A stretch of 64,000 nt of DNA from assembly GCF_032714615.1 (NCBI RefSeq), contig NZ_JAWDKA010000005.1, positions 124,001 through 188,000 on the forward strand, read 5' to 3'. This DNA is from Methanorbis furvi (GTDB lineage Archaea > Halobacteriota > Methanomicrobia > Methanomicrobiales > Methanocorpusculaceae). A model generated the notes under the pieces. The model saw only the letters and a list, made by a program, of their open reading frames with translations. It searched no databases and was not told the DNA's origin. Positions 37,872 to 59,469 of the stretch are shown piece by piece (the stretch's first letter is position 1; every line of letters begins with the position of its first letter). The position numbers and the translations under genes were made by a program.

Positions 37872-38072
37872 TGCCCACGACTCGCATGCCTGCGGCCTGC
37901 TTACCGCTTCGCGGGAGCACACAGGACACACAGAAAATTTCACGGAAAAAACATCACGGAGCAGACGTGAACATCACTGAATCCGAAAACAATTCATTTC
38001 CGTGATATTCTCGTCTACTCCGTGATGTTTTTTTTCTGTGATATTTCTGTGTTTTCCGTTTTTCCGTGGGCG
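37872..38072. repeat. Dispersed palindromic intergenic element, family B with shared head module
   Basis: In the 306-nt gap between convergent genes. The outer ends are CCCACG (37874) and CGTGGG (38065-38070). A head module (37881-37916, CGCATGCCTGCGGCC.., CCGCTTCGCGGG) is shared with the family A copies. The body holds 25-nt arms at 37953-37977 (ATCACGGAGCAGACG..) and 38002-38026 that are inverted with three mismatches. The transcript would fold as a long hairpin. Confidence 0.8.
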
Positions 38073-58230: not shown

Positions 58231-59232
58231 TCAGGTGTCTGAGGGCAGGTAGATATCCAGCTGTTTCTGAAGTTTGTTTCTCTGAATGTCCCACTTCTCA
58301 TTTATTCTTCTGCGAAGCTCTGCTTCCAGCTCCGGGATTCGGTTTCCAATATATTTCTCGAAAAGTTCGGGTATGATTTTGTCGAAGTCGCGTTCATAAA
58401 CACGTCCGTCTTCACCGATTGTTTGCATGCTTGACTGGAATGCGAGCGGATAGCCGAACGGCAGTATCATGTAGTGCACCACTTCTCTGGCAACCCGTCT
58501 GGTCCCAATTCTGAAGGGTTTGAGTATGCGAAACTCGCGGTGCCAGAGAAAAACCTGTTCCGCCGGATGATAACCGTCTGCGATTCTTTTGTAACATTTG
58601 GTAAGCTGCTTCTGCACCGCAATCTCATTTTCACGGGTGAGTTTTTCCGGTTCATGAATGTTGGCAACAATGGTGTTTCTCAGCCGCTGAATGAAGGAGG
58701 GCGTTACCTTGCGCGGGTTTGCGTTGCGCATCACGCTGCAGGTGTGAAGATTCTGAATTTCGTTGACGTCACGGAGAAATTTGCCGTTCGGAACCCTTCC
58801 GGTCTCAAGCATTGTGGCGACTTCGGAGAAGGTGAAGGTGTTGCCGTTGGTTTTTGCGGATTCGTGAATGTAGTGGTACTCGTGATCGTTTATGTGGTCT
58901 TTGATCTCCTCGGCAGTGAGGTAGTCATGATACCGCAGATCCAGATACCGATATTTTTCCAGCAGGAAGTACGCTTTTCCATCCACTGCATGTTCATATT
59001 TGAAGTTCTCCACCCGGTATGACGCCACTTTTTCACAACATTTCATCTCCAGTTCAAACCCGTGCAGCAGAATTGTTCGTGAGATCTCTGCATCAGTTGG
59101 CATGATTCCTGTTTTGATAAGTTTTGATGCCCGGAACTTTCGTGAGTCGCTGTTTACTTCACGAAGAAGATAATATTTTACGACGCCGTTCTGTACCCGC
59201 GGCTCTATCCGAAAATAGATGTCCTTTTTCAT
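58231..59232 (-). CDS. Fic-fold protein with degenerate active site
   Basis: 333 residues. The N-terminal part (about 1-45, YFRIEPRVQNGVVKYYLLREV) is the usual start of archaeal Fic proteins. It is followed by ESAKTNGNTFTFSEVATML and GRVPNGKFLRDVNEIQNL, which correspond to the inhibitory-helix and linker regions of Fic enzymes. The Fic core at about 226-251 reads WHREFRILKPFRIGTRR followed by VAREVV, where active proteins have HxxFxxIHPFxDGNGRxxR. The catalytic His is Lys, the acidic metal ligand is Ile and the Asn of NGR is Thr; the usual inhibitory Glu is Asn. AMP transfer is unlikely. The gene is intact, so the fold may be kept for binding. Confidence 0.75.
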   Translation of the reverse strand: MKKDIYFRIEPRVQNGVVKYYLLREVNSDSRKFRASKLIKTGIMPTDAEISRTILLHGFELEMKCCEKVASYRVENFKYEHAVDGKAYFLLEKYRYLDLRYHDYLTAEEIKDHINDHEYHYIHESAKTNGNTFTFSEVATMLETGRVPNGKFLRDVNEIQNLHTCSVMRNANPRKVTPSFIQRLRNTIVANIHEPEKLTRENEIAVQKQLTKCYKRIADGYHPAEQVFLWHREFRILKPFRIGTRRVAREVVHYMILPFGYPLAFQSSMQTIGEDGRVYERDFDKIIPELFEKYIGNRIPELEAELRRRINEKWDIQRNKLQKQLDIYLPSDT

Positions 59233-59309: not shown

Positions 59310-59469
59310 CCCACGGAAAAGCAGAACACGCGGAGTCTCACTGAAAAAAGATCACGGAGCAGACGAGAACATCACAGAAATGAATTATTTTCGAATTCCG
59401 TGATGTTCACGTCTGCTCCGTGATGTTGAAATATTCTGTGGAATTCCGTGTGTTCCGTTTTTCCGTGGG
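59310..59469. repeat. Dispersed palindromic intergenic element, family B
   Basis: Outer ends CCCACGGAAAA (59310) and TTTTTCCGTGGG (59458-59469). Inner 25-nt arms at 59351-59375 (ATCACGGAGCAGACG..) and 59400-59424 are inverted with one mismatch, around GAAATGAATTATTTTCG. This is the best-preserved family B copy. It lacks the head module found in the 37.9-kb copy. It lies between the Fic-like gene and the MBL gene. Confidence 0.85.

Follow-up and report, generated by a model that had tools for sequence, protein, structure and literature searches.

The locus described here raises the question of what a Fic protein does once the residues for its reaction and those for its own inhibition have both been replaced. 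The gene lies in the window, i.e. the whole 64,000-nt stretch of DNA that was analysed, and the genome to which it belongs is 1.85 Mb in 26 contigs. To our knowledge, non-catalytic Fic proteins amount to very few cases (BepC and AvrB), both of which are secreted effectors. Degenerate Fic motifs are already known (PMC4454073, PMC8401265). The gene, called pseudo-Fic below, was delimited as follows.

58231..59232, minus strand: pseudo-Fic gene (group B), 333 aa plus stop, assigned from the ORF, Fic homology, structure model and Foldseek matches

The ORF is intact, running from an ATG start to a TGA stop with no stop inside, which agrees with the original prediction of a complete, in-frame gene. 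Human FICD was matched at 2e-7 when pseudo-Fic was used as phmmer query against PDB sequences, and at 7e-8 with the profile of group B (pseudo-Fic and its orthologues at the same locus); the sequence likeness to Fic exceeds chance. Scans of Pfam (E <= 10) and NCBIfam with pseudo-Fic returned no match, whereas canonical paralogues reach 1e-23 in Pfam, and this silence fits a protein without the signature on which the Fic model (PF02661) rests. The AlphaFold2 model obtained from the family alignment had a pLDDT of 86 and a pTM of 0.82. Foldseek comparison of this model with the PDB gave 40 matches at E <= 0.001, every one a Fic protein, with target-normalised TM values up to 0.70, which supports the proposal that the fold is kept. 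The model of group C, the sister group described below, was built on a C-only alignment (pLDDT 87, pTM 0.80) and also had Fic structures as top matches, the confident structure matches of the B and C models being Fic only. By predicted fold, pseudo-Fic belongs to the Fido (Fic/Doc) superfamily, and the modelled Fic scaffold survives even where the motif is deleted (group C).

Three sites, all on the minus strand, carry the losses.

58495..58521, minus strand: residues 238-246, KPFRIGTRR, former Fic core motif (canonical HPFxDGNGR), placed by alignment and profile-profile comparison
58840..58860, minus strand: S125-AKT-N129-G130-N131, former inhibitory-helix motif, with Asn in place of the Glu of (S/T)xxxE(G/N)N
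58624..58629, minus strand: N202/E203 junction, site of the deleted target-docking flap (~17 residues), placed by alignment with canonical relatives

In the profile-profile alignment (hhalign, 100% probability, E 1.4e-40), HREFRILKPFRIGTRRVAREVVHYMILPFGYP was aligned ungapped with the core of canonical Fics from the same taxonomic order. Compared with these, His is changed to K238, Asp/Glu to I242, Asn to T244 and Gly to R245; two Arg residues are retained, R246 at the end of the motif and R249 downstream of it. The core had been written before as KPF-RIGTRR; the loss of His, acidic ligand and Asn read from it stands, but the gap is unnecessary because the core aligns ungapped with HPFxDGNGR. 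No second HPF motif was found elsewhere in the 333-aa protein, by sequence or alignment, and hence no alternative alignment that would place HPF at another position. In the inhibitory helix, the Glu said to be Asn is N129 in pseudo-Fic and Ile or Val in the orthologues, so that the class II motif (S/T)xxxE(G/N) is absent throughout group B. The flap of canonical relatives (GFLISGCDFQLTPSILIEEEL and similar) is deleted as well, a loss that the original prediction overlooked, as it did the PIP-like tail and the sister clade described below. As read from its residues, the protein has lost catalysis, self-inhibition and substrate docking, all three. With the catalytic His, metal ligand, NGR Asn, inhibitory Glu and flap gone, pseudo-Fic should be without AMP transfer and would have no need for self-inhibition.

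Same-locus orthologues were detected in six Methanocorpusculum genomes, five of them intact and one (M. petauri) frame-broken. The core of group B takes the form KPF[RKQN][IVN]G[ST][RK]R; His, acidic residue and Asn of HPFx(D/E)GN(G/K)R are replaced in all members (the acidic residue by Asn in L009), and no member has the inhibitory Glu. The substitutions noticed in the single gene are therefore conserved, and no orthologue with the canonical residues was found. Neighbours shared in 7/7 group B genomes are argininosuccinate synthase (ASS), a YeiH-type transporter, MFS, DUF454, XRE, membrane protein, MBL, AAA, TPR and CofC-like genes, of which MFS, DUF454, XRE, membrane, MBL, AAA and TPR also form a conserved block. 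Within this neighbourhood, no other Fic, no antitoxin-like gene and no toxin-antitoxin operon was found next to pseudo-Fic. A toxin-antitoxin module was considered for the locus and rejected, since no cognate partner gene adjoins pseudo-Fic.

Group C consists of proteins of ~294 aa which retain the N-terminal domain and the helices but have no core loop, no flap and no inhibitory-helix segment. In the ML tree of 58 proteins, for which the program warned of long branches, B (100/98) and C (100/99) are sister clades, and the B+C clade (100/100) stands apart from canonical Fics. The C genes are spread over several loci and differ in the genes upstream of them, and no common synteny of B and C was found; as the C loci differ from the B locus, the orthology of B and C rests on the tree and on single-copy exclusivity. 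This exclusivity was complete among the genus genomes at least 90% complete: 12/12 carry one B or C gene, 0/12 carry both, and the gene is intact in 10. Neither B nor C genes were found in the sister genus.

Two frame-broken copies were looked at, at L004:5001-5997 and L022. The M. petauri copy has its frame broken near codon 85. That of genome G031 is broken near codon 30 and has a short deletion directly before the tail, with VRQKQLDFFG intact.

Plain decay of an old Fic gene is hardly credible given the selection data, although the frame is broken in two of the 12 good genomes (G015 and G031), by which the gene is not indispensable everywhere, and although pseudo-Fic diverges faster than most neighbours (protein identity of 57-62%, versus 82-95% for the neighbours ASS, MBL and AAA). 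The NG86 dN/dS was 0.08-0.12 in group B and 0.06-0.18 in group C, across many lineages, where neutrality would give ~1; these values argue against decay. Even the degenerate core of group B had a pN of 0.02-0.04 versus a pS of 0.18-0.54. Besides pseudo-Fic, five further intact B genes and 12 C genes are known, with invariant tail residues. A new role instead of decay, as had been suggested from the joint loss of both mechanisms, is thus favoured by five intact orthologues with the same losses, by conserved synteny, by the low dN/dS of group B and by an equally constrained sister clade C.

Within group B, K238, P239, F240, G243, R246, R249 and E250 are invariant. This invariance would suit a pocket adapted to a novel reaction or ligand, where K238, R246 and R249 together make a basic site for anions, and in BepC the motif Lys contacts the nucleotide and replaces the Mg ion (PMC7842960). 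Nevertheless, we regard such a pocket as very unlikely, because the flap needed for substrate registration is gone and the whole loop is absent in sister group C. Since the core loop is deleted in group C, it cannot be needed for any function common to B and C.

In the alignment of 18 B and C proteins, the two ends of the protein stood out as conserved.

59005..59232, minus strand: N-terminal domain, residues 1-76, predicted three-stranded beta sheet plus helix, net charge +5
58246..58269, minus strand: QKQLDIYL, residues 322-329, PIP-box-like motif in a low-confidence, disordered tail

In this alignment the mean majority frequency was 0.78 for segment 322-329, 0.70 for the N-terminal domain, 0.38 for the former Fic loop and 0.53 overall, and segment 322-329 is conserved beyond every other delimited segment of B and C. 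The net charge of the N-terminal domain ranges from +5 to +8 in B and from +4 to +11 in C, and scans of the domain against Pfam and PDB profiles gave nothing significant. It might be an arm-type or transposase-like DNA-binding domain, but as it matches no known domain, DNA binding can only be guessed at from its charge.

The PIP box is defined as Qxx-aliphatic-xx-aromatic-aromatic, and the archaeal PIP boxes known in three species sit at the very C-terminus (PMC6881253). In QKQLDIYL, a short motif, positions 1, 4 and 7 match this consensus and position 8 is Leu, not aromatic; for EndoQ, with QRSITEFL and QRTLLQYI, a Leu or Ile there is regarded as typical (PMC4858679). The tails of group C, QKQLDFFG or QKQLELF, are without position 8. 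Residues 318-326 and 328-333 of the AlphaFold2 model have pLDDT below 50. The window genome has a PCNA gene at G000:C7:61378-61677 (locus L154), and its PCNA clients end in GQATLDSWFS (FEN1), SQQSLSDFF (RNase HII) and QQMDLSDFF (DP2). Similar tails (QKTLSSFF, QQKLDRFF, QSRLSDYF, QLTLQSFI) were found in four canonical Fics with the same type of N-terminal domain, from three families of the order. No PIP-like tail occurs among the canonical Fics read that have the IKGNKYLYL N-terminus, nor in the canonical Fics associated with type I restriction-modification. A strict PIP regex on the last 18 residues matched 8/248 ORFs, six of the Fic family and two among ~240 others, this background being ORFs at the loci examined, some perhaps spurious. 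Shuffled tails match the motif in 0.02-0.7% of cases.

Alternatively, the tail of a non-catalytic Fic scaffold might bind another partner or signal degradation or some interaction. In favour of this, the consensus is a short one that group C matches only in part, and the tails of several canonical relatives (L023, L025, L031, L032) are degenerate and have no Gln. We consider this reading unlikely, because position, spacing and disorder of the tail equal those of the PCNA clients in the same genome, the segment is the most conserved of those delimited in B and C, and the motif is rare in other ORFs and in shuffled tails. No Fic protein with a PIP box and no link between Fic and PCNA was found among the open-licence papers searched.

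We therefore favour, with a probability of about 55%, that pseudo-Fic is an adaptor with a Fic fold but no catalysis, held on the PCNA sliding clamp by its tail, where the loss of AMP transfer, the binding of PCNA and the second partner are inferred. The ancestor would have belonged to an archaeal Fic subfamily whose members have a basic beta domain at the N-terminus, several of them also a PIP box at the C-terminus. Pseudo-Fic would have been inherited vertically within Methanocorpusculum, with selection maintaining the N-terminal domain together with the helices of the Fic scaffold and the final eight residues. The tail would dock the protein on the sliding clamp, and there the N-terminal domain and Fic scaffold might hold a second partner, either DNA or a replication or repair protein, or simply occupy the clamp.

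The main rival to the adaptor reading is an immunity or antitoxin-like partner, forming inactive complexes with catalytically active, PIP-tailed Fic toxins whose presence varies across the genus, or competing against them for PCNA. In Campylobacter fetus, Fic1 neutralises Fic2 (PMC5651007); some genomes with B or C also have active PIP-tailed Fics (L018 in G014, L091 in G015), and a common clamp-binding tail would make competition plausible. Such a Fic-Fic antagonist is weakened because many B and C genomes, that of the window included, have no active PIP-tailed Fic. The other Fic of the window genome is of unrelated type, no active Fic adjoins pseudo-Fic, and the inhibitory Glu, normally supplied by a trans-inhibitor, is itself lost, so we judge this alternative rather improbable.

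Returning to the clamp-tethered adaptor, a wider reading can be put forward tentatively and at somewhat less than even odds: methanogens may possess a clamp-tethered Fic family whose active PIP-box members act on clamp proteins, and whose dead member was fixed genus-wide in Methanocorpusculum as a single-copy adaptor or antagonist, selection having shifted from the active site to the N-terminal domain and the tail. The proteins L018, L091, L105 and L092 have intact core motifs together with C-terminal PIP boxes, which suggests that they are active AMP-transferases tethered to PCNA.

Among known systems, the class II Fic AMP-transferases (human FICD/HYPE, BT_2513 3cuc and C. difficile Fic 4x2e) are the best sequence and structure matches of pseudo-Fic and have the same fold, the same helix order and the same positions of inhibitory helix and core loop. 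In contrast to them, pseudo-Fic is without the catalytic His, metal ligand, NGR Asn, inhibitory Glu and flap, and adds the N-terminal beta domain and the PIP-like tail. The nearest precedent for the action of a non-catalytic Fic domain is BepC of Bartonella, whose Fic domain acts by protein binding, with motif and flap dispensable (PMC7842960). However, BepC retains HxFxKGNGRxxR and the flap and is a secreted effector, whereas pseudo-Fic is archaeal and chromosomal and its loss is far deeper. AvrB, a Fido protein with the motif absent (PMC4454073, PMC7842960), resembles pseudo-Fic in having a Fic-like fold with the catalytic residues gone, but it is an effector aimed at plants and still has the beta hairpin, and the two are likened by fold class alone. 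Fic1 and Fic2 of C. fetus (PMC5651007) likewise present a degenerate Fic alongside canonical paralogues, although Fic2 keeps its His, is toxic and is neutralised by Fic1, and such a pairing was not found for pseudo-Fic. The archaeal PCNA clients FEN1, RNase HII, DP2 and EndoQ carry QxxLxx[YWF][FLI] at a disordered C-terminus as pseudo-Fic does (PMC4858679, PMC6881253), but unlike it they are nucleases or polymerases.

No vertically kept archaeal pseudo-Fic, graded loss series or PIP-like tail in common with active Fics was found among the open-licence papers covered. If the adaptor reading is true, a genus-wide, single-copy, chromosomal archaeal Fic pseudoenzyme would connect the Fic fold with the replication machinery of archaea, and the natural series of active, core-degenerate and core-deleted members would show an enzyme becoming a scaffold.

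Other Fic lineages were also noted. Group D (~285 aa; L085-L089 and L053:6956-7840) is a separate degenerate Fic lineage in six Methanocorpusculum genomes, with the core HPFx[TS][AG]NGL against HPFxDGNGR, with deletions that remove the flap and some of the inhibitory helix, and with no PIP tail. As group D is sister to the canonical L033/L090, its flap loss is independent of that in B and C. The canonical Fic L033 lies inside an apparent type I restriction-modification operon (L052:1046-11051), flanked by HsdS-like and HsdR-like ORFs which were named from sequence by eye. Single core changes were seen in L107, L114 and L115, further Fics of Methanomicrobiales, which read HPLVDGN, HPFSRGNGR and HPFLNGNGR.

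Upstream of the pseudo-Fic gene, a nested inverted repeat with arms of 36 and 32 nt occupies positions 59310-59469 of the window. The motif of its inner arm, CATCACGGAGCAGACG, is found again at 37952-38027 with the same 60-nt spacing, and may, given this recurrence at equal spacing, represent a small palindromic repeat element.
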